Source of the DNA: Desulfuromonadaceae bacterium
GTDB taxonomy: Bacteria > Desulfobacterota > Desulfuromonadia > Geobacterales > Pseudopelobacteraceae
Length of the DNA stretch: 64,000 nt
Assembly (NCBI GenBank): GCA_028687585.1
Contig: JAQTZV010000018.1
Span: 50,448 to 114,447, forward strand
Reading direction: 5' to 3'
The position numbers and the translations under genes were made by a program. Positions within the stretch are counted from its first letter, which is position 1, and the number at the start of each line of letters is the position of its first letter. This document shows positions 7,731 to 37,262 of the stretch, piece after piece. The notes under the pieces were generated by a model, which was not told the origin of the DNA, ran no database searches, and saw only the letters and a list, made by a program, of their open reading frames with translations.

Positions 7731-7748
7731 TGACTGAATTTTCAGTCA
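7731..7748. promoter_or_regulatory. perfect palindromic operator TGACTGAA-TT-TTCAGTCA upstream of the etfBA operon
   Basis: 8+8 bp perfect inverted repeat with 2-bp spacer; same sequence recurs at 24163, 34801 and (imperfect) 15692, 34945. Confidence 0.8.
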
Positions 7749-8220: not shown

Positions 8221-9519
8221 CTACCCGGTTTTCTCCATCGCTTGCAGCACCAGTTCCATGATGTCGTAGACAACCATGGCGTCGCCGGACTCGGCCGCGG
8301 CGTCCTTGAAATTGCGCTCGCACCAGGGGCAGGCGGTGACAAGTGCCTGGGCGCCGGTGGAGTGCGCTTCCCGCAGCCGCTCCCGGCCAGTCGTCAGGGC
8401 GAAGTCGGGGAATGCCTCTTTGGCCCCTCCCCCCGATCCGCAGCAATAGGTCCATTCCCGTATTCTGGGCATCTCAGTCAGGGTGACCCCGGGGATCGCC
8501 TGCAGGATATTGCGAGGGGAATCGTAGACCCCCTTGTTCCCGAAGTTCACCTCCCGGACCGGATCGGTGACGTACATGCGGGGGTCTTCAGCCATCTTAA
8601 TCTCGCCCTTCCAGGCCTTGAGAGGTTCTCCCAGTCGCCCTAGGTGACAGGGATCATGGAAGGTGACCTGCAGCGGGACCTCACGGGTGAACTTAATTTT
8701 CCCTTTACCGATCAATCGCTCGATGTATTCCGTGATGTGCAGCACCTCTATGTCCAAGTTGCAGTCCGCCGCCTGCGGATAGAGCTGCTTGAAGGTGCCG
8801 TTGCAGTCCGAGCAGCAGGTAAGCAGTATCTTCGAGCCCGCATCCTTGAGCCTTCCCGTCAGGCTTTCCGAATAATTCTTCAGTTCCTGCTGGTAACCCA
8901 TTTCGTAGGCTCGGCCGCCGCAGCAGATCTCCTCTTTCTTGGCAAAGCCGAAGTCCACCCCGGCCGCCTGCAGGATCTTGGCGGCGGCGCGGATCACCGG
9001 CCACTGTTCCTCGTCATAGGAAAAGTGACAGCCCACGTGCAGGTAGACTTCGGTCTTTTCCTCCAGCGCGTCCTTGATATCGAGTCCTTCCGCCCACTTG
9101 GACCGATCCGCCTTGGGCTTGCCGAAGATGTTGTCTTCGCGTTTCAGGTAGTCGATCAACATCATGTGGGCCGGGTCGCTCTGGCCGTCTTCCACGGCCC
9201 TCGACCGCAATTCCCGCATATTTTCCATCGGCTCCACATTGCCGCCGTAGTTCAGGTTGCACGATATCTGGCAGGAACCGCACATGCTGCAGGTGAAGAC
9301 AGCTTCCAGCATCTCGTCCGTGTAGCCGATTTGCCCATCCTCCAGCGCTGCAGCCATGATGGTCTTACCCCCTCCCGAATAGGAATGGAATTCTCCGTAC
9401 TCCATGCTCGGGCAGCCGGTGGCGAAGTCCCAACCGGATATCCGCGGCGTCGTCACCCACTTGCAGGCGGAACACCTGATGCACTGCATCATCTGATGCT
9501 TTCTCTCGCTCAATGACAT
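8221..9519 (-). CDS. Fe-S oxidoreductase with 4Fe-4S motifs and two CCG domains (GlcF/HdrD-like)
   Basis: QCIRCSACKW..., CSMCGSCQISC, HVGCHFSYDEE...EICCGGRAYEMGY, HDPCHLGRLGE...YCCGSGGGAKEAFPD. Confidence 0.9.
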   Translation of the reverse strand: MSLSERKHQMMQCIRCSACKWVTTPRISGWDFATGCPSMEYGEFHSYSGGGKTIMAAALEDGQIGYTDEMLEAVFTCSMCGSCQISCNLNYGGNVEPMENMRELRSRAVEDGQSDPAHMMLIDYLKREDNIFGKPKADRSKWAEGLDIKDALEEKTEVYLHVGCHFSYDEEQWPVIRAAAKILQAAGVDFGFAKKEEICCGGRAYEMGYQQELKNYSESLTGRLKDAGSKILLTCCSDCNGTFKQLYPQAADCNLDIEVLHITEYIERLIGKGKIKFTREVPLQVTFHDPCHLGRLGEPLKAWKGEIKMAEDPRMYVTDPVREVNFGNKGVYDSPRNILQAIPGVTLTEMPRIREWTYCCGSGGGAKEAFPDFALTTGRERLREAHSTGAQALVTACPWCERNFKDAAAESGDAMVVYDIMELVLQAMEKTG

Positions 9520-9542
9520 TTATCTCTCCTCCCTGGTAGATA

Positions 9543-11021
9543 TTAGAAACACAGCCTGCCGGGGTTCAGGATGCCCTCGGGGTCCAGCATCTTTTTCACC
9601 CGTTTCAAAAGGGCCGTCGCTTCCCCGTTTTTGCCGTACACCAGGTCGGCCCACGGCCCGTACGGCCTGCTGAAGAAGGCTTCGTTACCGGCAAGTTTTG
9701 CACCCGCGTCCAAGTACAGCGCTTTCAGATTCGACGTCTTCGCCCTGTCGGTGGGATCGTAGGCTAGGTTGAATTCGCAGTGGCATGAGCTTCCCTGCAC
9801 CATCGGCTGCAGGTAAATGCCGATCTCGTTGCTCGGGTAGTGGTGCCGGACAACTTCCTCCATGACAGCGACGTGGCCGGGGGTCTTGTCCAGGGTGGTG
9901 GTGAAGAAGATGTCCTGAAAGGCACCCCGATGCTTCATCTTGTAGAATTCTTCCGGCGGATTATCCAAAAGCTCGGCCAGCGCCTTGCCGGAAATCCCCA
10001 TCACTGCTGATTTCAGTTCCACGCCCCGCGCCTGCGCCAATTCCCGCAGGTCCTTCTCCTGGTAGGCCATCTGTTCTTCCGGCAGCATGCCGCCGGCGGT
10101 GAGCTTCACAGTCAGGATCCAGGCCGGCAGTTTTTCGGCAAGAGCCGCGATCTCTCCCTTATCAGCCATCATGGTGGCGAACTGGAAAGCGTTCACTAGG
10201 AAGTGCTCCTCGCCCAGCCGCCGCCGGGAAAGCTGGTAGCTCAGGTCGATCAGCGGCTCAGGTGTGGCGGCGGTCAGAAACCAGGTATTATCTATCTCGG
10301 GGAGGATGCCGCAGATTACCGACCCCCAGGTCACCACCCCCATTGTCCCCTGGGAACCCTGCACCACCCGCGAAAGGCTGGTGGAGCCGGGGCCGGCGGC
10401 AAAGCACTGCCTGAGGCCGGCGTCCAACTGTTTCTGGAGATCGGCCGGCGGGCTGGATGCCGAACCGGTGCGGAACAGATCACCGGTTCCGAAGATGACC
10501 TCCATGGTGACGAGCGGATCAATGGCATCCCAGTGGTCCCTGGGCACGACCACCGGTTCCCGCTCCAGGTAGCTTGCCAGAACCGATTTGGTCCGCCGCG
10601 GCAAAAGCGGCTTGAAGGCCCGTAGGCCTTTCTGGCGCAGCGCCTGCTCCAGCTGGTCAAAGGTCACCCCCGGCTCGATCACGGCGATCTTGTCCATACG
10701 GTCGACGTTCAGTATCCGGTCCATTCCGCTCAAATCCAGGATCATTCCTCCCTGGGAGGCGATGGTGTCTCCGCGCAACCGCGGCCCCCCCGGAGAACTG
10801 ACCGGTATCACCGGCATCCGTTTCTCCTTGGCGTAATTGATGATCTGCTGCACCTGCTGCGCGGTTTTCACCTTGACCACGTAGGCGGGCAAACCCGGTG
10901 AGACAAAGCTCTCGTCACTCCCATACGCGGATAGTATTTGCTCGGCATCGGACACCTGGTCCTTGCCGACGATCATTGCCAAATTCTCTTTTGCCATCGC
11001 TCCTCCTTTGATTCCGTTCAA
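9543..11021 (-). CDS. FAD-binding oxidoreductase (GlcD/GlcE-like), module 1 subunit B
   Basis: 492 aa; PVIPVSSPGGPRLRGDTIASQGGMILDLSGMDRI, EPGVTFDQLEQALRQKG, C-terminal KKMLDPEGILNPGRLCF. Confidence 0.88.
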   Translation of the reverse strand: MNGIKGGAMAKENLAMIVGKDQVSDAEQILSAYGSDESFVSPGLPAYVVKVKTAQQVQQIINYAKEKRMPVIPVSSPGGPRLRGDTIASQGGMILDLSGMDRILNVDRMDKIAVIEPGVTFDQLEQALRQKGLRAFKPLLPRRTKSVLASYLEREPVVVPRDHWDAIDPLVTMEVIFGTGDLFRTGSASSPPADLQKQLDAGLRQCFAAGPGSTSLSRVVQGSQGTMGVVTWGSVICGILPEIDNTWFLTAATPEPLIDLSYQLSRRRLGEEHFLVNAFQFATMMADKGEIAALAEKLPAWILTVKLTAGGMLPEEQMAYQEKDLRELAQARGVELKSAVMGISGKALAELLDNPPEEFYKMKHRGAFQDIFFTTTLDKTPGHVAVMEEVVRHHYPSNEIGIYLQPMVQGSSCHCEFNLAYDPTDRAKTSNLKALYLDAGAKLAGNEAFFSRPYGPWADLVYGKNGEATALLKRVKKMLDPEGILNPGRLCF

Positions 11022-11097
11022 TTAGTTCCCGCCGGGTTTTCTCTCACGCTGTCTCGCACCCGTTCCCGGAATTAGGTAGATTCCCAGTGCACCGAGG

Positions 11098-12672
11098 TTA
11101 TTCGGTCGGCATCAATACCACGGGCTCCGGGAAAATGTAGGTAAAGTGATCCGCCACGTTATCGGGATCCACCACCTCGTACTTCACCTTTCTCATCCAT
11201 TCGTTGGCGTTGAAGTTCGCGGGTCCCAGGCTGTCGGCAAAGATCCCCATGTAACCGGGAAGGATCTGAACACCAAGAGCCTCGCTGTTGGTGACCCGGC
11301 AGCTCTCCATCACGTACGCCATGTTTGCCGCCTGGACTCCCGGTTCCTCGGTGACGGCGAAGGCATTTTCGGAATGAAGCGACCTTCCTTCGTTGAGCCA
11401 GGCCCAGAATCCTTCCCGGCCGTGATCGGGAAGTTTTCCCGGCCCGATGTACTTGCCTAGCAGGTTTTCACCGGTCCGGTGGAGTTTGCCCATCAGGTTG
11501 ATGGATTCCTCCATGCCGAAACTGGTGCTGAAATCCCCGGTAGGCCGGAACACCCGCGGTATGTAGGAGATCCGAACGTTTGCCGCGAACAGGATCTCGT
11601 TCTGCTCGACAGTCAGTTGCAGAAATTTACCGCCGGTGTCTTTTACGATCTGCTCGAACACCTTTTTCCGGTACTCGAACTCCCTTTCGGAATGGCCGGC
11701 AATGATCGCCTGCCAGGCATGCAGGTGCTCCTCGCGGTCGATGGGCACGCTCCCTTTGTGGAAAGCTTCCTGGTACTCATCGTTGGTCGAGGTAAGCATC
11801 CAGTTCATGCAGTCCGGCGGCACTCTCAACACGGAAAAAGCGACGTTGTTGTCGACGATCTTGTAGGCCGCAGCCGTCATGTCTTCCCAGTTTTTCCAAT
11901 ACGGGAGACTGAAATGCATTCTCTCCGGTATCTTCAAGCCAATCTGGGGCTGGCTTCCGGTGCATTCCATACGCTCGTCGCCCACCCACGGGTACAACTT
12001 CAGGCCGATGCGGGTGAAGATACCGTTACCGCCGTAGGCCCCGTTGGTCCCCCTGACAATGCCGCGCAGGCCGGGGCCGGGACCGTCGCCTGAGAACCAG
12101 CCGGCGCCGACGCCGGGAGAGCCGAGCCTCGCCACTTCGCCGGTGGGAAGCACCCACTCGACCCCGAAAAGGTTGCGCTCGTTCCAGCTCTGGCTTAACC
12201 CTTTCGAGCCGATGCCCCAAACCGAGGTGGCGGAGGCCAGCGGCGAATGGGTCGGGCCAGCGGAGACTATGTGGCAATCGAGCCCCCGCTTCATCGCCTC
12301 CGCCTGTATCTGGGCGGCGATAGCGTAGGGCTCTATCACCGCGAACATGTTCTTCTCATCGATTTCCACGATCCGGTTCATGCGCCGCAAGTCCACCATG
12401 ATGGTGTCCTCGACCCCGGGGAACGCCAGGGAGCAAAACCCGGTGGAGTGGGCTTTGAATCTCAGTTTGTACCGGTTGCAGACCCTCACCACTCCCTGGA
12501 CCTGGGAGGTGTCCTCCGGAAGGACCACTGCCAGCGGCACGAAGGGCTGCCACCTCCCGTTGGGGCCGCCCCAACTGTAGTGATACCCCGCCAAGGTCCC
12601 GGGGTCTTCGGAAACGTATTTGGAACCGACCACCGCTTGCAGCGCTTTGTACGCGTCTCTCGAAAGAGCCAT
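11098..12672 (-). CDS. FAD-binding oxidoreductase (VAO/GlcD-like), module 1 subunit A
   Basis: 524 aa; VDLRRMNRIVEIDEKNMFAVIEPYAIAAQIQ, PLASATSVWGIGSKG, GGNGIFTRIGLKLYPW. Confidence 0.87.
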   Translation of the reverse strand: MALSRDAYKALQAVVGSKYVSEDPGTLAGYHYSWGGPNGRWQPFVPLAVVLPEDTSQVQGVVRVCNRYKLRFKAHSTGFCSLAFPGVEDTIMVDLRRMNRIVEIDEKNMFAVIEPYAIAAQIQAEAMKRGLDCHIVSAGPTHSPLASATSVWGIGSKGLSQSWNERNLFGVEWVLPTGEVARLGSPGVGAGWFSGDGPGPGLRGIVRGTNGAYGGNGIFTRIGLKLYPWVGDERMECTGSQPQIGLKIPERMHFSLPYWKNWEDMTAAAYKIVDNNVAFSVLRVPPDCMNWMLTSTNDEYQEAFHKGSVPIDREEHLHAWQAIIAGHSEREFEYRKKVFEQIVKDTGGKFLQLTVEQNEILFAANVRISYIPRVFRPTGDFSTSFGMEESINLMGKLHRTGENLLGKYIGPGKLPDHGREGFWAWLNEGRSLHSENAFAVTEEPGVQAANMAYVMESCRVTNSEALGVQILPGYMGIFADSLGPANFNANEWMRKVKYEVVDPDNVADHFTYIFPEPVVLMPTE

Positions 12673-12745
12673 TTTACTTACCCTCCTTTTTCCCTATTTC
12701 CGGCCGTGATGCGCCGGTACCCGACCTGGCCGCACCAACAACTTG

Positions 12746-13801
12746 TCACTGAACAAAGAGATGCTGCTGCGTCATACATAACTCCATATGCCGAACAACC
12801 GGTTCAAGCTCTTTCTGGTACTCTTCCAGGGCATCGCACCCCTCTTTTATACTTCTGGAAATCGCTTTACCCGCTTTGTACCCGGTATCGATGGCGGGAG
12901 CAATCCCTTCGCCATCGAGGTAGATAATTCCCGCCGCGCCCCCGGCAATCAGAACTCGATCCTTCCCGAAGTAAGGGGGCTGTATTTTTATGGCACACCC
13001 CTCATCCCATTGCATGGCTCCGAGAACCACCCGGAACTCATTCGCCAGAAACGCTTCCAAATTTTTCATGCAGACCTTGAGATTGCGCCCTTTCAATCCG
13101 CCGACGCACAAAGCAAGCGTATCATCCTTTCGATGAACGATGGACATGATGTCCCCAAAGTCGCGATCGCGAAAGACATAGCAGATGCTGTCCTGAAGGC
13201 TTCCCATATCTGCAACCCAGTAATACCTCTGATAGTTCCCGAGAATGGGAGAAGGTTGCTCCGCGAACGAGGGTTCAAGAACATTCTTTACCCGTGAGTC
13301 GGGACCGTCCGCTGCCACCAGGTAGGAGCAGTAGACATGACTGTCCCCTTTGGAACTCTCGGACAGTCGCACCTTGTACTTGCCGTTTTCCTCGGAGAAG
13401 TCGATTAGTTCACAGTTGTCCCTAAAACTTGCTCCCGATTTCTGCAGCAGCCAGTAATCGAATTTGTCTCGCCAGGCATTCAGATATTCCTGAGGGAAGC
13501 TCTGCCCGTCCTTTGGAATTTCCATGATATTGGTGGAAAATCCCTCTTCCCTGTTCCATTGCACTACGTCACAAGCCTGCACCCTGGCCGGATTGGAGAG
13601 CACGTTATCGGGAGGTGCCTCGCCGAAATACTGCTCGATCAGCTGCCGAGCCTGTCCGAGAACCACGGCGGTACATGGTTTGCGGCGCGGCAACGCCTTC
13701 TTTTCCACCACCAACACCTTGATACCTTCTTCATGGAGTGCCCTGGCACAAGCGGCTCCGGCCGGTCCCGATCCGACCACGATTACCTGATACTCATCCA
13801 T
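12746..13801 (-). CDS. FAD-dependent oxidoreductase, geranylgeranyl-reductase-like
   Basis: MDEYQVIVVGSGPAGAACARALHEEGIKVLVVEKK; start at 13801 with GGGGAG RBS (the ORF-track start at 13861 is longer). Confidence 0.85.
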   Translation of the reverse strand: MDEYQVIVVGSGPAGAACARALHEEGIKVLVVEKKALPRRKPCTAVVLGQARQLIEQYFGEAPPDNVLSNPARVQACDVVQWNREEGFSTNIMEIPKDGQSFPQEYLNAWRDKFDYWLLQKSGASFRDNCELIDFSEENGKYKVRLSESSKGDSHVYCSYLVAADGPDSRVKNVLEPSFAEQPSPILGNYQRYYWVADMGSLQDSICYVFRDRDFGDIMSIVHRKDDTLALCVGGLKGRNLKVCMKNLEAFLANEFRVVLGAMQWDEGCAIKIQPPYFGKDRVLIAGGAAGIIYLDGEGIAPAIDTGYKAGKAISRSIKEGCDALEEYQKELEPVVRHMELCMTQQHLFVQ

Positions 13802-13873
13802 TGTTCTCCCCTTTTCGAATCTACTCATGAATAGATAAGGCCGGTTGCAGCAGCAGGCCATGCCGATCTCACT

Positions 13874-15691: not shown

Positions 15692-15709
15692 TGACTGAAC
15701 TTTCGGTCA
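15692..15709. promoter_or_regulatory. operator-like palindrome TGACTGAA-CT-TTCGGTCA upstream of TetR gene
   Basis: One mismatch to the family consensus TGACTGAA-N2-TTCAGTCA. Confidence 0.75.
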
Positions 15710-15759: not shown

Positions 15760-16392
15760 TTGAAACAAACAGAATCGACGCCGCACGCGAAGACCCCAGC
15801 GCTGGAACCGGAACCGCAGAGGCGCCGGCACATCGAGGAGGCCGCGATAAGGCTGTTTTCAAAGAACGGCTACGGTAGCGTGAAAATCGGGGATATCACG
15901 GAGGCGGCGGGCATTGCCAAGGGGACCTTCTACCTTTACTTTGCTAATAAAAAAGAGCTTCTTAACTACTGCTTCACGCACATGCAGGAGTCCATTCTGG
16001 CGTACGATAAGAGCGACTCGGTCCAAAAAGAAGCCGACATCGTCATGAGGATGAAAAAGCGATGGCTCGACGTCAGGGTTTTACATCCGCGTTTCGAGGA
16101 CTTCACCTTGTTGCTGCAAGTGGCCTCCAACTCCGAAGACGCCGAGATACAGGAGAAAGCGCTGGAATGCTACACCTCCATCGTCGGCATGATAATCGCG
16201 GATATTGCGCAAACACGGGAAAGGGGGTTGCTGCCGAGCCACCTACAGCCCGAGTTGGCCGCATATGCCCTGGTCGGGACCTTCCAGTCGGTTGCCTTCT
16301 GGTTAGGACAGGGGAACAATTTCTCCACGAAAGACACGATTTGCTCGGTCGAGAAGTTCATCAGGGGGGTACTCTTCCCACCCAAGCCATGA
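15760..16392 (+). CDS. TetR/AcrR family transcriptional regulator
   Basis: TTG start with AAGGAGG RBS; AAIRLFSKNGYGSVKIGDITEAAGIAKGTFYLYFANKKELL HTH. Confidence 0.92.
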   Translation: MKQTESTPHAKTPALEPEPQRRRHIEEAAIRLFSKNGYGSVKIGDITEAAGIAKGTFYLYFANKKELLNYCFTHMQESILAYDKSDSVQKEADIVMRMKKRWLDVRVLHPRFEDFTLLLQVASNSEDAEIQEKALECYTSIVGMIIADIAQTRERGLLPSHLQPELAAYALVGTFQSVAFWLGQGNNFSTKDTICSVEKFIRGVLFPPKP

Positions 16393-16522: not shown

Positions 16523-18157
16523 TCATTTGAATTCCGGCACCGGTGGCATCGGCATGGGCGGAGGAGGTTCGGGCGAGATGTAGGTGCTGTGATCGGACAC
16601 GTTACGCGGGTCGAAGGCGTTTTTTATCTTCCGCATCCAATCCTGCACGTTGCCAAGCTGGGGACCGAATATATCGTTTACCCCCCCGATCATCAGCCTC
16701 TGGTCGAAGGCAAGCGACCCCCTGTCCTTCATGATGGACCCGAGGACTTTCCCGGCGTACTCGGTGGCTCCGGCCAGCGACTCTGGGGTTTCGTCGAGGA
16801 AGTGTACCGATTCCGTCCAAAGCTTCCGGGGCTCGGAAGGCCAGGCCCAGGTTCCGTCCGGTCCGGCGGCCATCAGCGCTCCTCCCGGCTTCACATACTC
16901 CTTCATGCAGTCGATGTCCGTCTCGTAAAGCTTTTTCAGAAGCGACATCGACTCCATCTGCGCGAGGGTCGGCCCTCCCATCCCCAGCGCAGATTTCTTG
17001 GCGCGCATCAGCCTCTGCGTGTACATGGGGGAGATCATCTGAAGCAGCAGGACGGCCTCGTCCTCGGCCGGCAGCTCCAGCAATTTCCCGTTCGTGTCCG
17101 CCACGATCTTTTGGAATACCTTGTTCTTGTACTCGAAGTCCGTTTTGGTACGGCCGGCGATCAGGGTCGCCCAGTGCATCCCGTGCTCTCTTGTTATCGG
17201 CAGGGTGCCGTCCTGGAATCTACGGTAGAACTCGTTGTTGGTCGGGGTCAGGAACCAGCCCCACCAGTCCTGCGGGATTCTCACCGTGCTGTAGGCGACC
17301 TCCGATTCCATGATGTGATAGGCCGCCTCCGTCATCTCGTCCCAGCTTTCCCAGTAGGCAAAGTGAAACTTGTAGTTTTCCGGCGTCTCGACCCCGACCA
17401 CGGGAAGTTTCCCCGTCTTTTTCAACTTCTCCTTGGCGGGCCACGGGTACAGCTTGTAGCCGATCCTGGTGAAGATGCCCAATCCTCCGGCCGCACCGGT
17501 GAACCCCCTGAGAAGGCCCCTGAAATCCGGGCCCGGCCCGTCGCCGCAAGACCAGCCGGCGTCGCTTCCCGGCGAGCCGATCCGGTGCAGGTCTCCGGTC
17601 GGACTGACCCACTCCGCCCCCAGGAGGTTTCGCTGGTTACAGGAGGTGGTGAAGCCGGTGGGGCCTTGTCCCTGGAAGGAAGTAGCCGAAGCGAGCGGGG
17701 AATGATTCCCGCCGGCGGTGATGACGTGACAGTTCATCCCCCTTTTCATCACCTCGGACTGAAGCTGATGAGCGGTAACGTACGGTTCGATCACGGCATA
17801 CAGGTTCTTTTCGTCGATCTCGACGATCCGGTTCATCTTCCTCAGATCGACCATGACGACGTTTTCGACCCCCGGCATCGCGTGCCCGCCATAACCGGTG
17901 CTCTGCGCTTTGCAGTGTATCCGGTAGCGGTTGCAGATCCTGACGATCTCCTGTACCTCCTCGGCGCAGGAGGGAAGGACGACCGCGATCGGTTTCGGGC
18001 CGCCGAACGGGTCGAAAGCGGCAGATCGGTCCACCAGACTTTCGATGAAGGTGATCCCGGAAAACCGGTATCCCATCAAGACGGCGGGATCCACGGAAAT
18101 GTTCTCCGCCCCCAGCAGAGATTGGAGCGCGTCGTACGCGTTCTGGTCGATATTCAT
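16523..18157 (-). CDS. FAD-binding oxidoreductase (VAO/GlcD-like), module 2 subunit A (paralogue of 11098-12672)
   Basis: 544 aa; VDLRKMNRIVEIDEKNLYAVIEPYVTAHQLQ, GAAGGLGIFTRIGYKLYPW closely parallel to module 1 subunit A. Confidence 0.88.
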   Translation of the reverse strand: MNIDQNAYDALQSLLGAENISVDPAVLMGYRFSGITFIESLVDRSAAFDPFGGPKPIAVVLPSCAEEVQEIVRICNRYRIHCKAQSTGYGGHAMPGVENVVMVDLRKMNRIVEIDEKNLYAVIEPYVTAHQLQSEVMKRGMNCHVITAGGNHSPLASATSFQGQGPTGFTTSCNQRNLLGAEWVSPTGDLHRIGSPGSDAGWSCGDGPGPDFRGLLRGFTGAAGGLGIFTRIGYKLYPWPAKEKLKKTGKLPVVGVETPENYKFHFAYWESWDEMTEAAYHIMESEVAYSTVRIPQDWWGWFLTPTNNEFYRRFQDGTLPITREHGMHWATLIAGRTKTDFEYKNKVFQKIVADTNGKLLELPAEDEAVLLLQMISPMYTQRLMRAKKSALGMGGPTLAQMESMSLLKKLYETDIDCMKEYVKPGGALMAAGPDGTWAWPSEPRKLWTESVHFLDETPESLAGATEYAGKVLGSIMKDRGSLAFDQRLMIGGVNDIFGPQLGNVQDWMRKIKNAFDPRNVSDHSTYISPEPPPPMPMPPVPEFK

Positions 18158-19464
18158 TGTGCCCCCTCCTTTTTAACTGTTCCCATCCCTTTAAGGACAA
18201 GCTCCACCAGATCGTAAACCGGGAATTGCTGGCCGCTCTCTTCGAGGGCATCCCTAAAGTTGCGCACGCACCAAGGGCAGGAAGTCACCAGCGCCTCGGC
18301 CCCCGTGGACCTCGCTTCCTCGATGCGCTCCAGGGCGGTTTTGAGAGCGAAATCGGGGTAGGCCTCCTTGGCGCCCCCGCCTGCCCCGCAGCAGAAGCTG
18401 TACTCTTTTATCCTTTCCATCTCGACGAGCTCTACCCCCGGGATACCCTGCAGCACGCTGCGCGGGGCGTCGTACACTCCGCCTACCCCGAAACTGACAT
18501 CCTTGGGAGGATCGGTGACATCCATCATGTTCAGCACCTTCTTCACAGTGCCGTGCCACGGTTGAGAGGGCTCGCCCAGTCTCCCCAGGTGGCAGGGGTC
18601 GTGGTAGGTCACGCGCAGCGGCACCTTCTCGCCGGTGGAAAGCTTCCCCTCCTTTGTCAAGCGCTCCAGGTACTGGGAGATATGGAGCACCTCCACGTCC
18701 GCAAGCCCTTGACCGGCGATGGGGTAGAGCTGTTGGAAGGAGCCGTAGCAGTCCGAGCAGCAGGTGAGCAGGATCTTGCAACCCGCCTCTTTCACCCTCC
18801 CCTTTAAACTCTCCGAGTAGCTCGCGAGTTCCTGCCTGTATCCCATTTCGTAGGCGCGCCCGCCGCAGCAGATCTCTTCTTTCTTCGCGATGCCGAAATC
18901 AACGCCCGCTTCTTGAAGGAGCCTTGCCGCGCCGCGGATGATGGGCCAGAGAGTTTCATCGTAGCTATAGTGGCAGCCGACGTGGAGCAGAACCTCGGCC
19001 TTCTCTTCGAGCGCGTCCTTGATCCCCAACCCCTCGGCCCATGCGGATCTGTCCGCTTTGGGCCCGCCGAAGATGTTGTCCTCGCGCTTAAGATAGTTGA
19101 TGAGCTGTATATGGGCAGGATCGCTTTGCCCGTCTTCGACGATTTTGCAGCGCAACTCCCGGATGATCTCCAAAGGCTCCACTTTTTCGGCGTAATTGAA
19201 CTTGCAGGAAACCGCACAGTTGCCGCACATCGAACAGGCATGGACGGTTTTCAGCATCTCTTCGCTGTAATCGATCACCCCGGAGGTCAAGGCCAGGGAG
19301 GTGATCACCTTCCCGCCGCCTGAATAGGCGTGAAAATTCCCGTAACCGATGCTCGGACAACCGATCGCATACTGGTAGCTTTCGACGTACGGGGGAGCCA
19401 CGAATTTACAACAGGAGCACCGCGCGCACTGCTCCATATTCTGTTTGTATTCGGACAAAGCCAT
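18154..19464 (-). CDS. Fe-S oxidoreductase with CCG domains, module 2 (paralogue of 8221-9519)
   Basis: MALSEYKQNMEQCARCSCCKFVAPP..., CSMCGNCAVSC, EICCGGRAYEMGYRQEL, HDPCHLGRLGEPSQPW, FCCGAGGGAKEAYPD. Confidence 0.9.
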   Translation of the reverse strand: MALSEYKQNMEQCARCSCCKFVAPPYVESYQYAIGCPSIGYGNFHAYSGGGKVITSLALTSGVIDYSEEMLKTVHACSMCGNCAVSCKFNYAEKVEPLEIIRELRCKIVEDGQSDPAHIQLINYLKREDNIFGGPKADRSAWAEGLGIKDALEEKAEVLLHVGCHYSYDETLWPIIRGAARLLQEAGVDFGIAKKEEICCGGRAYEMGYRQELASYSESLKGRVKEAGCKILLTCCSDCYGSFQQLYPIAGQGLADVEVLHISQYLERLTKEGKLSTGEKVPLRVTYHDPCHLGRLGEPSQPWHGTVKKVLNMMDVTDPPKDVSFGVGGVYDAPRSVLQGIPGVELVEMERIKEYSFCCGAGGGAKEAYPDFALKTALERIEEARSTGAEALVTSCPWCVRNFRDALEESGQQFPVYDLVELVLKGMGTVKKEGAQ

Positions 19465-19478
19465 TTGATATCTCCTTA

Positions 19479-20939
19479 TTAGTAGCAGAGCCTGCCGGGA
19501 TTCAGGATCTTGTTGGGGTCGAAAATCGTCTTGATTTTCCTCAAAGCCGCTGTGGTTTCCGCATCCCTTCGATAGACCATTTCGGCCCAAGGCCCGTAGG
19601 GGCGGCTGAAGAAGGCCCCCGCATCGGCTAGCCGCCTGCTGGCCGCGGGAAGCAGGGTACGAAGACTCTCCTTCTCCGCCGCATCCGCCGGGTCATACGG
19701 GAAGGAAAACTCGCAGTGGCAGGAGCAGCCCTGAACCCGCGGCTGAAGGTAGATCCCGATGTCCGCTGCCGGATATCGGTGTCCTCCCAGTTCGCTGCGC
19801 ATTTGTGCGATGAGACTCGGACTCCTGTCCAGAGTGGTGACGAAGAATATGTCCTGGCTGGCCCCTTTCAACTTCGTTTTGTGCTGCGGCTCCGGAGGGG
19901 TATCGAGGATTTTCATGAGCGAATTGGCCCTGACCCCGGCAAGCGCGGGAAGAAGCACCAGGCCCAGGTTCCGCGCGAAATCGCCCGTCTCTTTCTCCAG
20001 GGAGCGCATCTTCTCCTCGGGGAGGTAGTCGGGCGCGCTTAGGTTGAGGAAAAGAATCCACGGCGGCAGTTGGGCGCTCAACTTCGCGATCTGCTCCGGT
20101 CCGGCCGCCAGGATGCTTGCTAGGCTGACGCCGTTTAAGATGAAGAGCTCATCCCCGATACGGCTGCCGGTGAGCTTGTAGCTGAAATCGATCAACGGCC
20201 CCGGCTGGTCGGAAGCCACGAAAAAGGCGTTTTGCAGGGCGGGAAGCCTCGCGCAGGCGACCGACGCCCAGGTGACGATCCCCAGCGTTCCCTGGGCCCC
20301 TTGAAGGACGCGCGAGAAGTTCGTCTGCGACGGGCCGAGGTCGCTTAAGAGAGTAGCCCCCGCTTTTAATGCATCGTCTACCGACCCGGGGGCTTGGGCA
20401 GCCGACCCGGTGCGGAACATGTCTCCGGTTCCGAATACCACTTCCACACAGATAAGCGGGTCGGTGGTGTCCCACTGTTCCCTCGGCGCGACGATCGGCT
20501 CCCTTTCCAGGTACGAGGTGAGCACCGACTTGCTCTTTCTGGGCAGAAGCGGCTTCAGAGCCCGCAAGTTCTTTGTCCTGAGTTCCGCTTCCAACTGGTC
20601 GAAGGTGACCCCCGGTTCGACCATGGCCACCTTGTCACGCTCGCTGACGAAGAGTATCCTGTTCATGCCGCTTAGGTCCACAACCACGCCACCTTGCGAC
20701 GGGACGGTATCGCCGCAACGCCTCGGGCCGCCGGGAGAACTGACCGGGACGAGGGGAGTGCGCGTCTCGTTGGCGAGCTTCACGAGGCGCTGCACTTCCT
20801 CCGAGCTGTTAGTCCTGACCACAAGCGAGGGAAGGCGCGTAACGGCAAAGCTCTCATCGCTTCCATAGCTCTGCAGGGTCTTTTCGTCGTTGAAAACGTT
20901 CTGGTCGCCGACTATCTTTAACAAATCCTCTTTTAGCAT
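19479..20939 (-). CDS. FAD-binding oxidoreductase, module 2 subunit B (paralogue of 9543-11021)
   Basis: 486 aa; PLVPVSSPGGPRRCGDTVPSQGGVVVDLSGMNRI; same C-terminal DPNKILNPGRLCY. Confidence 0.88.
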   Translation of the reverse strand: MLKEDLLKIVGDQNVFNDEKTLQSYGSDESFAVTRLPSLVVRTNSSEEVQRLVKLANETRTPLVPVSSPGGPRRCGDTVPSQGGVVVDLSGMNRILFVSERDKVAMVEPGVTFDQLEAELRTKNLRALKPLLPRKSKSVLTSYLEREPIVAPREQWDTTDPLICVEVVFGTGDMFRTGSAAQAPGSVDDALKAGATLLSDLGPSQTNFSRVLQGAQGTLGIVTWASVACARLPALQNAFFVASDQPGPLIDFSYKLTGSRIGDELFILNGVSLASILAAGPEQIAKLSAQLPPWILFLNLSAPDYLPEEKMRSLEKETGDFARNLGLVLLPALAGVRANSLMKILDTPPEPQHKTKLKGASQDIFFVTTLDRSPSLIAQMRSELGGHRYPAADIGIYLQPRVQGCSCHCEFSFPYDPADAAEKESLRTLLPAASRRLADAGAFFSRPYGPWAEMVYRRDAETTAALRKIKTIFDPNKILNPGRLCY

Positions 20940-21283: not shown

Positions 21284-21733
21284 CTACCAGGGCCGGACGT
21301 CGATGACCCGTCGCCGGTTGGCCTCGGTCAGAAAGGCCCACAGGTCGCGTCTGAGCACCTGAGCATCCGCCTCGCCCTCTTCCTCCAGCCAAACATGGAG
21401 CTTGATGACAGCCTGGCGCAGCTCGTCCAGGGTGGCTTCCAGCGCCGAAATCCGCAGGTTCCGTCGTCCGGCTTCGGCCCGGGCCACGGCTACCATAAGG
21501 GGGCCGCGCAACTCGTCGGGCGCAAGCTGCGCGCCTCGCTTAAGCAGCGCCGACAGGCGATCGATCTCTTCCGCGCGCAGGCTCGCCGCATCGTCCCAGT
21601 CGCGCCGCAAAAGGCCGATCAGCATTTTCATCTGCCACACTTCGCCCATCTGCGGGCCGGGAGGCATCGATGCAAATTTTTCCTCCAGCCCAAGCAGGGC
21701 CCGTTCCAGTACCTTCTCGACAAGCGGCCTCAT
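21284..21733 (-). CDS. DUF6285-like protein
   Basis: MRPLVEKVLERALLGLEEKF...LLRRDWDDAASLRAEEIDRLSALL...; adjacent to APH-like kinase, a pairing typical of this family. Confidence 0.65.
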   Translation of the reverse strand: MRPLVEKVLERALLGLEEKFASMPPGPQMGEVWQMKMLIGLLRRDWDDAASLRAEEIDRLSALLKRGAQLAPDELRGPLMVAVARAEAGRRNLRISALEATLDELRQAVIKLHVWLEEEGEADAQVLRRDLWAFLTEANRRRVIDVRPW

Positions 21734-22764
21734 CTCAGCTCCTCCATCAACTCGATCATGTAGGATTCTTGCGCGTGCAGCGCCGCCCAGCTGATCACGG
21801 CATAGGTAAGATCGGTGCTGTCCGCGCTCAGGAAATTGTAGCCGCCGGTGGTGAAGATCCCGATCGACTTCACATGGGAGAAAAGCGCCCACCACTTGAG
21901 CGCCGCGGGATCGGCCCTCAGCCCGCTGGCGGCCTCCCAGGCCCCGACCGCCTCGCCGTACTCCAGATGCCCCGCGACCTTGTCGAGGGCCGCGCTAGGG
22001 CGCCAGTCGCGCATCAGCGCCCAGGCCAGGTCTTCCAGCGGATCGCCCAGGTGTGCCATCTCCCAGTCCAGGACGCCGGCAATCGATCCGTCAGGGAGGT
22101 AGAGGCAGTTTCCCAGGCGATAGTCCCCATGCACGACGCTGACGCGCCGGGCGGGCGGAGGGGGGTTGCGCTTCAGGTAGCGGATCGCCGCCTGGGTGAT
22201 TGGAGACGGGCCGAGGCTGTACCGCTGCAAGGTCGTTTCCCAGCGCTTAAGTTCGTCGGACCAGGCGGTGGCGCAGGAGGTGGTCGGTACGACCGACTCC
22301 AGGTTCTTCTCCCGGGGATCCACCAGGCTTACCCTGCCGAGGATCTCGAAGAGCGCCCTCCCTATCCCGGAGCCCACCGCGCTGAACGGGGGGAACAGGA
22401 TCGCCGGGATGTCGGCGACCCCCGGCAGCGCCGCGGTCACCATGAAGGGCGCCCCCAGAAAGGAGGGATCGTCCTCGTTGCAGATCACCTCCGGCACCGG
22501 TACGCCAGGCACCTCCGCAAAGGCGCGGCACATGGCGCACTCTATTTTGCGGCCGCTGGAAAGGAGCGACGCCTCGGGATCCACGCGCACGATCAGGTCG
22601 CGCTCGACCTTGCGGCCGCCGTCAGACAGCATCTCCAGGGAGACCTTCCAGGTCGCCCTGGAGATGCCGCCGGCAAGCTGCCTAGCGTCGTGTATCTTCA
22701 CTTGTCTCCAGCCGAGCCGCCCGCTCAAGTAGCTCTCAACGTCTTGGATAAATTTTTGTATCAT
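21730..22764 (-). CDS. phosphotransferase family protein (APH/ACAD10-kinase-like)
   Basis: 344 aa; VSVVHGDYRLGNCLYLPDGSIAGVLDWEMAHLGDPLEDLAWAL kinase motifs. Confidence 0.9.
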   Translation of the reverse strand: MIQKFIQDVESYLSGRLGWRQVKIHDARQLAGGISRATWKVSLEMLSDGGRKVERDLIVRVDPEASLLSSGRKIECAMCRAFAEVPGVPVPEVICNEDDPSFLGAPFMVTAALPGVADIPAILFPPFSAVGSGIGRALFEILGRVSLVDPREKNLESVVPTTSCATAWSDELKRWETTLQRYSLGPSPITQAAIRYLKRNPPPPARRVSVVHGDYRLGNCLYLPDGSIAGVLDWEMAHLGDPLEDLAWALMRDWRPSAALDKVAGHLEYGEAVGAWEAASGLRADPAALKWWALFSHVKSIGIFTTGGYNFLSADSTDLTYAVISWAALHAQESYMIELMEELR

Positions 22765-24162: not shown

Positions 24163-24180
24163 TGACTGAATCTTCAGTCA
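24163..24180. promoter_or_regulatory. perfect palindromic operator TGACTGAA-TC-TTCAGTCA upstream of CrtC-like/kinase operon
   Basis: Perfect 8+8 inverted repeat; minus-strand TTGACA-N18-TATATT promoter lies immediately upstream. Confidence 0.8.
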
Positions 24181-31512: not shown

Positions 31513-32763
31513 TCACACCGAGTACTTATGAACCGACTGAAACATGGCTCGTACATTCTCTACCGGAGCTTCATCGGGTATTCCTATTGATCCATCCAGA
31601 ATAAATCCGCCATCCTTGCCGACCTTCTCGATAAGGCGGCGGCATTCCGCATCGACCTGCTCGGGAGTCCCTGTCGTCAGCAGCGAAGCCGGGACGTTTC
31701 CGCGTAGACAGACCGTTTTACCCAGCACCTCTTTGGCTTTGACAAGATCGGTGTGCTCAAACCAGTAGACGGCCTTGCCTGCCGGGATATCACCTATGAT
31801 TTCCAGACGGCTGGTGCAGTTCGCTTCCCACAACACGACCGGAATCAGATCATTCTCGATTAAACCGAGTAGCAGCCGCTGAAATGTCGGCCACCAAAGA
31901 GTTTTAAACTGCTGCACAGACATGAATCCATCCGGCCCCCAGTGGATGGGGATAAAGACAAATTTGTTGCCGGTCATCCGTGCCGCGCCGATTGCTCCGC
32001 GCAGCAAAAATACCAACACCTTTTCCATCGCTTCGATTAGTTTCTCAGGACGACGGCGAATATCGGTCAATATCCCTTTGGCCCCACGGAAATAATCTCC
32101 GAAAAAATCGAGCGGTGCAGGCGCTACTGCACCGAATGACTCGGGATACCCCTGAGCGGTCATTTCTTGACCAAAAGTCATACATTTCATCATCAGACTT
32201 TGAGCTTCCTGAGCCGCCTTCTGAATAGCTTCAAAAGAGCGGGCAATCTCTGGATTGGCCAACTGGGCGACAAGCGGGCCTGAAGCTATAGTCACATACA
32301 TGTTGCCGGGCAATACCGGGAAATGCGCAAACCCCTCATAAGCCTCGGCAACGCGAGGCATGTATTTGTTAAGATAGAATCCGGTCGGGTCAAAGATGAA
32401 ATCATCGTACTCATCTGCCGTCATATACTCCTTATCCAGAAACTGAAAAGAGTGGTTGTCGCTGACTCCATGCCCCGGCCACTGCAACTGTTTATAGCCG
32501 GTAGCGTCAAGCGACGGTCCCAGCATGGTCAGAAACGGCGAGATATATGAATCAGGATCCAATTCGATTACCGCTTTGCGCATGAGGTTGCAGGAGGTGT
32601 TATAGTCGTAGAAAAGATCTCGACAGCTGACGCCGCCATATTTTGCCAACCAGAAGGTGGCGAAGAAGGAGGTGGGGACCCGATCGGTCGGACGCAATTC
32701 AACGGCATCCATGATGCGTTTCGATTTTTCGGTGTAACGGGTTTCTCCGGTGATATCGGACAT
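31513..32763 (-). CDS. uroporphyrinogen decarboxylase-family (UROD/MtbA-like) methyltransferase
   Basis: 416 aa; VIELDPDSYISPFL, HWGPDGFMSVQQFKTLWWPTFQRLL, GGFILDGSIGIPDEAPVENVRAMFQSV. Confidence 0.85.
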   Translation of the reverse strand: MSDITGETRYTEKSKRIMDAVELRPTDRVPTSFFATFWLAKYGGVSCRDLFYDYNTSCNLMRKAVIELDPDSYISPFLTMLGPSLDATGYKQLQWPGHGVSDNHSFQFLDKEYMTADEYDDFIFDPTGFYLNKYMPRVAEAYEGFAHFPVLPGNMYVTIASGPLVAQLANPEIARSFEAIQKAAQEAQSLMMKCMTFGQEMTAQGYPESFGAVAPAPLDFFGDYFRGAKGILTDIRRRPEKLIEAMEKVLVFLLRGAIGAARMTGNKFVFIPIHWGPDGFMSVQQFKTLWWPTFQRLLLGLIENDLIPVVLWEANCTSRLEIIGDIPAGKAVYWFEHTDLVKAKEVLGKTVCLRGNVPASLLTTGTPEQVDAECRRLIEKVGKDGGFILDGSIGIPDEAPVENVRAMFQSVHKYSV

Positions 32764-32766
32764 GGA

Positions 32767-33417
32767 TTATTCTCCTCCTGTGGTGGATTTACGACAAAAA
32801 TTGACTGCATCGACTGCATTCAAACCGTATGCATCAGCCCCGGTATAGGCACGGATCGTCTCGTCGATCTGACCGCCACCAATCTGAATCTTCAAACCAT
32901 TTCGCAGGCCAGAGACCTCGATGGCCTCGATGGTTTCTTTCATGGAATCGAAGGCCAATGTCAGGAAACCGCTCAGGCAGATCACCTGCGGTTGGAAGGC
33001 TTGTATCTCGTCCAGGAAGGTGGACACCGGCACATCGATGCCGATATCCTTTACCTCGAAGCCGTTGATATCCAGCATAAAGGTAACAATATTCTTGCCG
33101 ATGTCGTGCAGGTCACCATGCACCGTTCCGATCAGTACCTTACCGAGTTTTCGGGACGGTTTGTTAGGTGAATCGATGATAAGCGGTTTTGCCATGACAC
33201 CGATCTGATCGAGCACTTCACCGGCCAGGATCAATTCTGGCAGAAAATACTCACCCTCCTCGAAGCGTTTACCGACGATGTCCATTGCCTCCCGGCAGAG
33301 TGCAAGCACCTGTAATGGGTCTACACCGCAATCCAGCAGCTCTTTCGCTAATGCCAGTGCATCGTCTTCCTCCATGTCAGCTACCAGGTCAATAAGACGC
33401 TTTTCATTTTCATCCAT
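32767..33417 (-). CDS. corrinoid (B12-binding) methyltransferase protein, MtbC/MtaC-like
   Basis: GTVHGDLHDIGKNIVTFMLDINGFEVKDIGIDVP (DxHxxG); B12-binding-2 helical N-terminus. Confidence 0.92.
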   Translation of the reverse strand: MDENEKRLIDLVADMEEDDALALAKELLDCGVDPLQVLALCREAMDIVGKRFEEGEYFLPELILAGEVLDQIGVMAKPLIIDSPNKPSRKLGKVLIGTVHGDLHDIGKNIVTFMLDINGFEVKDIGIDVPVSTFLDEIQAFQPQVICLSGFLTLAFDSMKETIEAIEVSGLRNGLKIQIGGGQIDETIRAYTGADAYGLNAVDAVNFCRKSTTGGE

Positions 33418-33425
33418 GCTCAACC

Positions 33426-34748
33426 TCACTTTAAGTTTATTTCCATCCTATGCACTGGCGCCGCCACGCACAGCAAGCAGACCAGGCCGACGGCAGCGGC
33501 GCAGAGCGCGAGCAAAAAGGCGATATGATAGCTTCCGGTGGCATCGTAGATCGTCCCGGCAATGAAGGCCCCGAAGTTACCGAGGGCACTGACAATCATC
33601 ATGAGCCCCATGATCTTCGGGTACTCCCTACGCCCGAAATAGGAGGAGGTAAGCGTCATCCACCCCACCATGGTGGCGCCGTTTCCGAGACCGAAGACGA
33701 TGGAGTAGACAAAGGCGACAGGTGCGGTGACGGTGAAGCGCAGCATCACCATGCTCAGGAGCAGGACACCAGCGGCGACAACCGCGAGATGTTTCATGTC
33801 GAAGCGTAACGCCAGGGCTCCGATGACGACGTTTCCCAAGGTCCCGGTCCCGGCCATAACGCCCAGAGTGGCGGCCGCGGTCCCGGCGCCGATCCCGATT
33901 CCCTCCAGGAAGGCAACCTGGTGGGTAAAAATAACCGACATAATGAACATCGACATGGTGGCGGCTGTCACCACCAGCCAGAAGGCTCGCGTCTTCACCG
34001 CCTCCTGCACGGAAAAATCAACTGATGTCAGGTACTGCTGCGTCCTCAGGAGCGCCCTCGGCTCCTCGACTTCTGCAACGACATTCCCGTCCGGAACCTG
34101 ACCGAGTTCCTCCGGGGTATCTCTGACAAACATGAAGGGAACGACGACGGCCAGCACAAGGGCGAGGCAGGCCAGGGCCTGGTAGGCCACGCGCCAGCCG
34201 AGGTTGGTAATGATCGCCATGAGTGCCGGGATCAAGATAATCCCCCCGCAGCCCCCGGAAGCTACGATCCCCCCCAAAGCCACCGCCACCTTCTTCCGAA
34301 ACCAGTTGGTAGCGACTGTGGTCGCCGCAAGCGTTCCTCCGAGGCCGGTTCCGATCCCGAGGAGCCCACCGTAGGCCAGGTACAGTTGCCAGGGTTTATT
34401 GTGAAAAGCCAGCAGCAGTAACCCCATCACCGTCAAGATGTTGCCGAGATAGAGCGCCTTGCGGGGACCGTATTTTGCGATAAACATGCCGGCCAGCGGA
34501 GCGGAGAGACTCATTACTACCGTAAGTGCAGTTGCGGCACCGGAGACCACCCCCCTGCTCCAGCCGAACTCGCGACAGATCGAAGGAATGAAGGCACCGA
34601 AGGAGAAAAGGACTCCCCCAGCGACCACGAAAATTACAAGTGAGCTAGCCGACAACGATTTCCAGCCGTAAAATCTAACCGCAGCAGCCTGATTCGCCAC
34701 CAGTGCAACTTCGCCGGCAGTGTCACCACCAACAGATGGTTTCTCCAT
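33426..34748 (-). CDS. MFS transporter (OFA/monocarboxylate-like)
   Basis: 440 aa, 12-TM pattern, YGPRKALYLGNIL, FGLGNGATMVGWMTLTSSYFGRREYPKIMGLM. Confidence 0.9.
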   Translation of the reverse strand: MEKPSVGGDTAGEVALVANQAAAVRFYGWKSLSASSLVIFVVAGGVLFSFGAFIPSICREFGWSRGVVSGAATALTVVMSLSAPLAGMFIAKYGPRKALYLGNILTVMGLLLLAFHNKPWQLYLAYGGLLGIGTGLGGTLAATTVATNWFRKKVAVALGGIVASGGCGGIILIPALMAIITNLGWRVAYQALACLALVLAVVVPFMFVRDTPEELGQVPDGNVVAEVEEPRALLRTQQYLTSVDFSVQEAVKTRAFWLVVTAATMSMFIMSVIFTHQVAFLEGIGIGAGTAAATLGVMAGTGTLGNVVIGALALRFDMKHLAVVAAGVLLLSMVMLRFTVTAPVAFVYSIVFGLGNGATMVGWMTLTSSYFGRREYPKIMGLMMIVSALGNFGAFIAGTIYDATGSYHIAFLLALCAAAVGLVCLLCVAAPVHRMEINLK

Positions 34749-34800: not shown

Positions 34801-34818
34801 TGACTGAAATTTCAGTCA
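34801..34818. promoter_or_regulatory. perfect palindromic operator TGACTGAA-AT-TTCAGTCA upstream of MFS/corrinoid operon
   Basis: Perfect 8+8 inverted repeat downstream of a minus-strand TTGACA-type promoter. Confidence 0.8.
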
Positions 34819-34944: not shown

Positions 34945-34962
34945 TGACTAAGTTTTCAGTCA
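34945..34962. promoter_or_regulatory. operator-like palindrome TGACTAAG-TT-TTCAGTCA upstream of MerR-TetR gene
   Basis: Two mismatches in the left arm; right arm perfect. Confidence 0.65.
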
Positions 34963-35020
34963 CTGCTATGCACGATACGTATTGCGCAGGCCAGACCAAA
35001 ATGCAGGGGAGGTGCCTCTT

Positions 35021-35944
35021 TTGAAGAAAAAACAGCCGTCGCCGATGAAAATCGCCGAATTGTGCCTTGACTCGGGGTTAAGCAAACCCACCATCCTTAA
35101 TTACCTCAAGATGGGACTGCTGCCTCCGGCAGTGCAAGTTGCCTCCAATCTGCATCTCTACGATGCTACCCACCTGGAAAGACTCAGGGAGATTCGCCGT
35201 TTGCAGGAAGAGAAGGGCCTCTCCCTTCCCCAAATCAAGGAAGCCCTGGAGACCGGCCGTATCCCGGAGAAACCGAGATTCCTCAATTCCAAGCTCCCGA
35301 CACCCGAAAGCCCATCTCAGGAGGTTGATCCAGAGACCCAGAGACGGCTGCAAATTCTGGATATCGGTATCAGGCTGTTCTCAAAGCACGGCTATGGGAG
35401 CGTGAAAATCGGGGACATCACCGATGCAGCGGGTATTGCCAAAGGAACCTTCTACCTTTACTTTCTCAACAAAAAAAATCTCCTTAACCAGTGTTTCTCG
35501 CACATCAGGGAACTGCTCATCGCGGAGAACAGCAGCGAACCGGTGCTAAAGGAACCTGACATCGTCCTAAGGATGAGAAACCGCTGGCTCGATATCCGGA
35601 TAGCCTACCCGCATATAGAGCAATTCACACAATTGCTACAGGTGAGTTCAAACTCCGACGATGCCGAGATACGGGAGAAGGCGCTGGAGTGCTATAATGC
35701 GCTGGTCCAAGGCTTGATCAGCGACATAACGGAAACCAAGGAAAATGGATTGCTGTCTGCCGACCTGGACCCGAAGCTGGCCGCCTACGCAGTAACCGGA
35801 GTTTTTCATTCCATGTCCTTCTGGATGGACAAAGGAAGTATTTCCATGGAAGTCGCGGCCGTCGCTGTCGAGAAGTTCACCAGGGGGATTCTGTTCCCAC
35901 CGGCCAAGTCCCGAGTTCCTGAGCAAACGGTAATAAAGCGATGA
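35021..35944 (+). CDS. hybrid regulator: N-terminal MerR-like HTH plus TetR/AcrR domain
   Basis: TTG start with GGGGAGGTG RBS; MKIAELCLDSGLSKPTILNYLKMGLLPPAVQVASNLHLYDATHLERLREIRRLQEEKGLSLPQIKEAL then IRLFSKHGYGSVKIGDITDAAGIAKGTFYLYFLNKKNLL. Confidence 0.88.
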   Translation: MKKKQPSPMKIAELCLDSGLSKPTILNYLKMGLLPPAVQVASNLHLYDATHLERLREIRRLQEEKGLSLPQIKEALETGRIPEKPRFLNSKLPTPESPSQEVDPETQRRLQILDIGIRLFSKHGYGSVKIGDITDAAGIAKGTFYLYFLNKKNLLNQCFSHIRELLIAENSSEPVLKEPDIVLRMRNRWLDIRIAYPHIEQFTQLLQVSSNSDDAEIREKALECYNALVQGLISDITETKENGLLSADLDPKLAAYAVTGVFHSMSFWMDKGSISMEVAAVAVEKFTRGILFPPAKSRVPEQTVIKR

Positions 35945-36153: not shown

Positions 36154-36545
36154 CTACCAGAGAAGGGTGTCCGAAAGCCGCCGTCGATTGGCTCCCAAGA
36201 GGAAAAGCCAGCTATCATCAAGCAGGGTCCGCGCATCGTCCCCGGACGTTTCCTCCAGCCGGCTTTGCAACTCGATCAGCGCTTCCCTCAAACCGTCGAG
36301 GGTTTCCTCCAGCGCGCTGACATGCAGATATCCTCGTTGTGCCTCGGCACGGGCCAGCGACGCCGAAAGTCTCGACTCAAGCGTCTCGGGGACCAACTCC
36401 GCCCCCCGGCGCAAAAGTCCCATCAACTGCTCAATCTCAGAGGCCCGCATACTTGCAGCCTCGTCCAAGTCGCGCCGCACGCGGACGCCAGTCAGGCAGT
36501 AAGGCCCAGGCCAGATCCTCCAGGAATCTGATCTGGTATGCCAGA
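36154..36545 (-). pseudogene. degraded DUF6285-like gene with remnant of APH-like kinase
   Basis: RRDLDEAASMRASEIEQLMGLLRRGAELVPETLESRLSASLARAEAQRGYLHVSALEETLDGLREALIELQSRLEE parallels 21284-21733; other frame HLAYQIRFLEDLAWALLPDWRPRAA parallels kinase HLGDPLEDLAWALMRDWRPSAA. Confidence 0.7.
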
Positions 36546-36890
36546 TGATGAAACGATGGCTCTCATTCCAGACGAAGTACCCGCATTTCCCCGGCATCAT
36601 CGGGCTCCTTCAGACCTACCAGCAATCCGAGGATCCCATGATCCGAAAAAGAGCTGTGAATGCCCACACCGAAATCATCAAGCCAGTCAGAGAGGACATA
36701 AAAAAGGCCCCAGATGAAGGCGTCATTGCGCCGTTGGACCCGGAGTTGGTCGCCCACGCGGTTCTTGGCATCATGCAGAATACCGCCCTGAGGCTGAATT
36801 AGGACAGTACCTATACGTTAGAACAGGCCACTGATGTCTTGAAAGAGCTCATAAGACGAGTGCTCCAGCCGCTAGTCAGAAAGTCTTGAA
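36545..36890 (+). pseudogene. TetR C-terminal (ligand-domain) fragment with frameshift
   Basis: MMKRWLSFQTKYPHFPGIIGLLQTYQQSEDPMIRKRAVNAHTEIIKPVREDIKKAPDEGVIAPLDPELVAHAVLGIMQNTALRLN then +frame DSTYTLEQATDVLKELIRRVLQP, parallel to the C-terminus of 35021-35944. Confidence 0.7.
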
Positions 36891-36949
36891 ACACGGGCAG
36901 ACCCAGAGGTCTCCCTTCAACTCACGCTGGGAAACGCGCTTGAGGATAC

Positions 36950-37262
36950 CACCTGTACGTCGCTGAAGGCGAGCAGGGTCATTGAGGAGGGCACCGACGT
37001 CATCCGGAAAAAGTCGATTGAATCGTATAATGCGGTTATAATGCCGACAATGGATGATCAACGGGAAGCACAGAAAGAAGTATCGCGTTGGCAATGGAAC
37101 CGGAAATTGTCGCTTATGCCATAATTGGCATTATGGAAAACATCACTTTTCGTTTAAACCAGGATAATAAGTATTCGATTGAAATGGGTGCGAAGGCTAT
37201 CGAAGATTTATTTCGACTTATTCTTATGCCACAACCATACGTTGCAAGTGATGGCCTATAAG
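36950..37262 (+). pseudogene. second TetR C-terminal fragment with frameshift
   Basis: GTDVIRKKSIESYNAVIMPTMDDQ... then shifted frame ALAMEPEIVAYAIIGIMENITFRLNQDNKYSIEMGAKAIEDLFRLILMP. Confidence 0.65.

Follow-up and report, generated by a model that had tools for sequence, protein, structure and literature searches.

The window, a stretch of 64,000 nucleotides of a Desulfuromonadaceae contig, carries on its plus strand (35021..35944) a gene for a regulator of 307 amino acids, in which a MerR-type winged helix-turn-helix (HTH) is followed by a TetR repressor. The longest open reading of this gene begins at a TTG codon at 34982 and has 320 amino acids; we favour the TTG at 35021 because a ribosome-binding site of the Shine-Dalgarno type, GGGGAGGT, precedes it at 35006-35013. 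A putative target operon diverges from the fusion gene on the minus strand. It encodes an MFS transporter (33426..34748; Pfam MFS_1, 1.3e-39), a corrinoid protein (32767..33429; Pfam B12-binding; NCBIfam methyltransferase-cognate corrinoid protein at 1.5e-41, below the cut-off of that model) and a methyltransferase of the URO-D/MtaA type (31513..32763; Pfam URO-D, 1.4e-20).

Two close relatives of the fusion gene are found on the same contig. The first, a TetR repressor on the plus strand at 15760..16392, contains TetR_N only (Pfam, 6.2e-15) and so lacks the MerR part, as the initial annotation had noted. The likeness which that annotation saw between the two genes is also real: their TetR parts are about 57-58% identical, and the promoter, operator, Shine-Dalgarno sequence and TTG context of the sister gene are all similar to those of the fusion gene. 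The second relative (C35:45269-46225, L025) lies just left of the window and is a full-length MerR-TetR paralogue, 47% identical to the first fusion.

Behind the fusion gene, the interval 36154-37262 resembles a gene graveyard, which starts with a minus-strand fragment similar to the protein at 21284-21895 and continues (~36545-37262) with two decayed pieces of TetR ligand domains on the plus strand, of which one is very like that of L025. Elsewhere in the window, the intervals 8221-13861 and 16523-20939 contain similar sets of FAD_binding_4 oxidases and CCG/Fer4_8 iron-sulphur proteins, as if a catabolic module had been duplicated.

Domain organization of the fusion protein

The initial annotation had read the protein as a MerR HTH joined to a full TetR repressor and had proposed a domain search and a structure prediction. 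Both domains proved to score above the curated Pfam cut-offs, MerR_1 at 3.7e-14 (53 bits against 21.6; residues ~9-77) and TetR_N at 2.2e-13 (50.2 bits against 24). As in the MerR family, the winged HTH is N-terminal (residues ~9-78; 35045..35254, plus strand, as are all parts of the gene). However, no dimerization helix or effector domain follows it. In the place where the MerR dimerization helix would be, there is an unconserved linker of ~28 residues (~79-106; 35255..35338), variable in length among relatives, with a mean pairwise identity of 9% and with residues 82-101 at a pLDDT below 50. The TetR HTH (residues ~107-160; 35339..35500), with the helix AAGIAKGTFYLYF, is internal rather than N-terminal and is succeeded by an all-helical C-terminal ligand and dimerization domain (35501..35911), as is usual for TetR proteins.

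The best MerR model among those of NCBIfam is CadR-PbrR (TIGR02047; 9.6e-7, score 28.9 against an equivalog cut-off of 151), and the best TetR model is that of Bacillus FadR (1.3e-12), where the 47.9 bits of the fusion protein fall short of the 200 required for an equivalog. The AlphaFold model, which was built on an alignment of two sequences, has a mean pLDDT of 66; its MerR part is poorly modelled (~35-64), whereas the TetR part is usable. For the latter, the top-ranking fold match in the PDB is Bacillus subtilis FadR (3whb; Foldseek, TMt 0.82), in agreement with the top sequence match, FadR 5gp9 (phmmer, 1.5e-11). Judged from its sequence and fold match, the fusion protein is a TetR regulator of the FadR-like kind that carries an additional HTH of a different family.

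Distribution and evolutionary history of the fusion

The search turned up no fusion in the rest of the genus (36 genomes) or in 21 genomes of the order. A match spanning both domains is present in at least 16 of the 394 other genomes of the phylum (a sample of 395 with the source genome), distributed over nine other families, in at least 28 of 397 genomes of Actinomycetota, many of which encode several paralogues, and in at least 2 of 399 genomes of Bacillota; these are lower bounds, as scoring was limited to the five top candidates of each genome, and the last two labels follow the named genomes used as search centres. All ten relatives that were scanned have both MerR_1 and TetR_N over the Pfam cut-offs. 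A scan of genome contigs gave two distant TetR matches and nothing else, and the plasmid records searched with the window protein gave no match. Two plasmid matches of a relative (H1 and H16) seemed to cover the MerR part and turned out on inspection to be TetR-only; the same was true of open frames in two genomes of the genus (G005 and G015), which had seemed to cover both parts. The absence of the fusion from the rest of the genus suggests that the region was acquired horizontally or was retained in one lineage only.

The initial annotation had called the combination of two families in one protein unusual and had proposed to count such fusions. The counts, made here in genome samples, leave that view only partly intact. 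The architecture is lacking in the related genomes, and we found no description of MerR-TetR fusions in the open-access literature and no NCBIfam model for them (other domain databases may list the architecture). On the other hand, at least ~4% of the genomes of the phylum and at least ~7% of those of Actinomycetota encode it, often in several copies, which go back essentially to one old fusion. The MerR-TetR fusions are apparently an old and undescribed protein family.

In a maximum likelihood tree of 94 TetR domains, 50 rows from fusions, that of the present protein included, fall into one clade together with four TetR-only rows (support 98/75 for the 54-row clade and 99/97 for a 52-row clade contained in it); of these four, L061 is cut short by a contig end and may or may not carry a MerR head. 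This topology suggests that the fusions descend from essentially one old fusion event. The gene at 15760 is the sister of the fusion gene (100/100) within a group that also contains L025 (100/99). Since it is nested inside the fusion clade, a secondary loss of its MerR head is the simplest reading.

Pairwise comparison of 23 fusions gave a mean identity of 42% for the MerR part, almost as high as the 49% for the TetR HTH, against 25% for the ligand domain and 9% for the linker. The divergence of the MerR part correlates with that of the TetR part (r=0.73). These values suggest that selection maintains the MerR head and that it has been inherited together with its TetR partner. The best-conserved positions of the family include residues of the MerR HTH and its wing (I25, Y28, G32, L34, Y47, H51 and L55), and the fusion and L025 are 63% identical in the MerR part as compared with 39% in the ligand domain.

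In two genomes, G402 (L105:5628-7324) and G103 (L096:11261-12942), two fusion genes follow each other in tandem, their ends touching or overlapping, and in a third, G086 (L106:5562-7334), their counterparts form one protein of 591 amino acids with the order MerR-TetR-MerR-TetR. The two halves of this protein group in the tree with the first and the second genes of the tandem pairs, respectively, which argues that a gene pair, presumably encoding a heterodimer, became a single chain in G086.

Predicted operators and target genes

The 5.47-Mb genome contains six copies of an 18-bp palindrome, TGACTGA-N4-TCAGTCA, that differ from TGACTGANNNNTCAGTCA at no more than one position, and all six are confined to 42 kb (C35:43511-85409); by a rough estimate, the chance of such clustering is ~1e-10. 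Promoters bearing the box include those of both regulators, of the MFS/corrinoid/methyltransferase operon and of an ETF operon. A putative operator, TGACTAAGTTTTCAGTCA (34945..34962, plus strand), overlaps the -35 element of the fusion's own promoter (TTGACT-N17-TATGCA), and another, TGACTGAAATTTCAGTCA (34801..34818, minus strand), is situated just downstream of the -10 element of the divergent MFS operon promoter (TTGACA-N18-TAAAAA). These two boxes, 144 bp apart ahead of the fusion gene, are palindromes at the own and the neighbouring promoter, as predicted operators of a TetR-type repressor should be. Further putative operators are TGACTGAACTTTCGGTCA (15692..15709, plus strand) at the promoter of the sister gene, TGACTGAATTTTCAGTCA (plus-strand reading; 7731..7748, minus strand) upstream of ETF, acyl-CoA ligase and AOR genes that run leftward from 7653, and TGACTGAATCTTCAGTCA (plus-strand reading; 24163..24180, minus strand) upstream of a minus-strand gene that starts near 23956 and has no Pfam match, and of an APH-type kinase gene. 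Variants of the TGACTGAC/TGACTGG type are present in promoters at and near L025, at positions 43511, 44973 and 45232 of the contig.

The type of box goes with the TetR helix, whether or not a MerR head is present. An identical helix, AAGIAKGTFYLYF, and the same TGACTGAA-type box are common to the fusion and its MerR-less sister, and L025, with its different TetR helix ISIGKGTFYLYF, goes with the shifted box. For this reason, the specificity for the palindrome would be set by the TetR half. Bacillus FadR recognizes an operator of the form TGAnTGA-N4-TCAnTCA, and the boxes described here have the same form. Comparable palindromes are found upstream of fusions in other clades, namely GAATGA-N4-TCATTC in six of eight loci, TGAGTGA-N4-TCATTCA in five of seven and ATGAATGAACATTCAT in two of four, with a shuffled expectation near zero. 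A FadR-type operator read by the TetR half is thus predicted for the whole family. By visual inspection, the promoter spacers measure 17 or 18 bp and not 19-20 bp as in MerR promoters. Five promoters, with boxes at 7731, 24163 and 34801 in the window and at 44973 and 45232 of the contig, are unusually uniform: in each, a spacer of 18 bp separates TTGACA from the -10 element, and the box follows the latter closely.

The gene content of the divergent operon suggests that it serves the use of methylated substrates, perhaps methoxy-aromatics. The genes behind the box at 7731 have Pfam matches to ETF, AMP-binding and AFOR, and, apart from the divergent operon, the genes that the boxes would serve encode ETF, acyl-CoA ligase and AOR as well as a CoA-transferase and an Oxidored_FMN protein. 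Related fusions have thiolases, enoyl-CoA hydratase, ferredoxin-nitroreductases, AMP-ligase and Oxidored_FMN proteins as neighbours. Together with the FadR fold, these genes point to an acyl- or aryl-CoA as the ligand of the TetR half, and the regulator probably switches a local gene set for acyl- or aryl-CoA breakdown.

Candidate sites for the MerR head

No second motif common to eight promoters of the source genome rose clearly above shuffled sequences. Just one set of words exceeded the mean of the shuffles, namely TGTCGAAC with its complement (2 words against a mean of 0.2 and a maximum of 4), and it is unconvincing; GTTTGACA, which stands beside four boxes, is the -35 element. An inverted repeat, CGTGCAT...ATGCACG, surrounds the box at 34945 and is absent at the other boxes.

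One sub-clade of relatives offers a candidate. The 4.5-Mb genome G424 contains ACTCTATAGA-N7-TCTATAGAGT twice (at most three mismatches), each time upstream of one of its two fusion genes, and the CTATAG-N9-CTATAG within this pair has been kept between diverged flanks. Exact copies of CTATAG-N9-CTATAG number just two in three genomes (15 Mb), both upstream of fusions (in G424 and G387). The dyads lie upstream of L094 (G424:C1:566014-566040), L104 (G424:C1:546240-546266) and L098 (G387:C28:60584-60604); the promoters of the window have no such dyad. Metal-sensing MerR proteins bind dyads of 21-22 bp within spacers of 19-20 bp (PMC5045206, PMC3431237), as compared with which CTATAG-N9-CTATAG is wider and otherwise placed. 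We consider it a candidate site of the MerR head in this sub-clade.

Discussion

Several known systems resemble the fusion in part. It shares with Bacillus FadR (3whb, 5gp9), an acyl-CoA-responsive TetR repressor, the TetR fold and HTH and, as predicted here, target genes related to acyl-CoA; in contrast, FadR has about 190 amino acids, one HTH and no MerR head, and another base stands inside the box here. The N-terminal winged HTH, with MerR_1 over the cut-off, is like that of MerR regulators of the CadR-PbrR subfamily, which, unlike the fusion, have a coiled-coil dimerization helix, a metal or drug domain and promoters with 19-20-bp spacers. More than one HTH per chain is also known from Mce3R (9b7y), where two TetR repressors form one chain in parallel to the 591-amino-acid protein of G086; however, both HTHs of Mce3R are of the TetR type, whereas the extra HTH of the fusion comes from another family. 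In Sulfolobus, the TetR-family regulator FadRSa has few genomic sites, all of them serving one catabolic cluster of ~30 kb (PMC6449355). The confinement of the boxes to one region, of 42 kb here, is similar, although FadRSa is archaeal and has a single HTH type.

We think it fairly probable that the protein, taken as a whole, is a FadR-like one-component regulator of the TetR type to which a functional MerR HTH has been added. The TetR half would form the dimer and recognize TGACTGA-N4-TCAGTCA. Through the operator over the -35 element, the fusion would repress its own promoter, and through the one close behind the -10 element, the divergent MFS/corrinoid/methyltransferase operon; it would probably also repress the other promoters of the 42-kb catabolic region that have the same box. 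The repressor would be released when its TetR ligand domain binds an acyl- or aryl-CoA thioester. The MerR HTH, having neither its own dimerization helix nor an effector domain, would make a second contact with DNA, which could add affinity, select among the boxes shared with the MerR-less sister or bridge two sites, for which the pair of boxes 144 bp apart ahead of the fusion gene is a candidate. Two findings count against this proposal, namely the persistence of the sister without a MerR head and the lack of a second motif at the eight promoters, and the poor model of the MerR part weakens it further.

The same two findings, together with the variable linker that replaces the MerR dimerization helix, could instead be taken to mean that the MerR-type domain no longer binds DNA and has become a structural or protein-contact module (recruiting, for instance, RNA polymerase or a partner regulator), with the TetR half doing all the recognition. 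This seems to us unlikely, if well worth considering, as HTH and wing positions are among the best conserved of the family and one sub-clade has, beside its fusions, a further dyad that bears no relation to the TetR box. The good conservation of the MerR HTH might even suggest that the MerR half is the main reader of DNA and acts as a MerR-like activator that untwists the promoter spacer, while the TetR half senses the ligand. Several target promoters with 18 bp between TTGACA and the -10 element would fit such an activator, but a spacer of that length is normal and MerR promoters have 19-20 bp (PMC3431237). Moreover, the palindrome changes with the TetR helix and also serves the MerR-less sister, and there is no MerR-type dimerization helix; we find this alternative quite improbable. 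That a misassembly or a misread start has joined two unrelated genes has nothing in its favour except that the rest of the genus lacks the arrangement, and we give it almost no credence: both domains are in one frame behind a ribosome-binding site at the TTG start, a second fusion is present on the same contig and dozens exist in other genomes. The paralogue and the independent homologues exclude chance, sequencing artefact and misassembly alike.

A bolder reading can be tentatively extended to the whole clade, which we put forward while suspecting that it is somewhat more apt to fail than to hold. Its members would be bivalent repressors, whose dimer grips the FadR-type palindrome with its TetR heads and, with its MerR heads, a distinct dyad of the MerR type (for example CTATAG-N9-CTATAG), and which can bridge or loop promoter DNA; some lineages would have fused two chains and so acquired four HTHs.

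TetR and MerR proteins are among the largest families of bacterial regulators, and each is normally described with one HTH per chain. With a recognizable TetR operator, a natural MerR-loss paralogue with the same type of operator in one genome and single-chain tandem relatives, the fusions lend themselves to the study of what a repressor gains from a second DNA-binding head that is unrelated to its first. Our results also suggest that records labelled simply 'TetR family' may conceal a MerR head. Some relatives are extended at their C-terminus: in a sub-clade of fusions (L087, L089, L090, L092 and L095) and in the TetR-only L073, ~110 additional residues follow the TetR domain, which look beta-rich by eye and gave no Pfam match in the two fusions that were scanned (L087 and L095).
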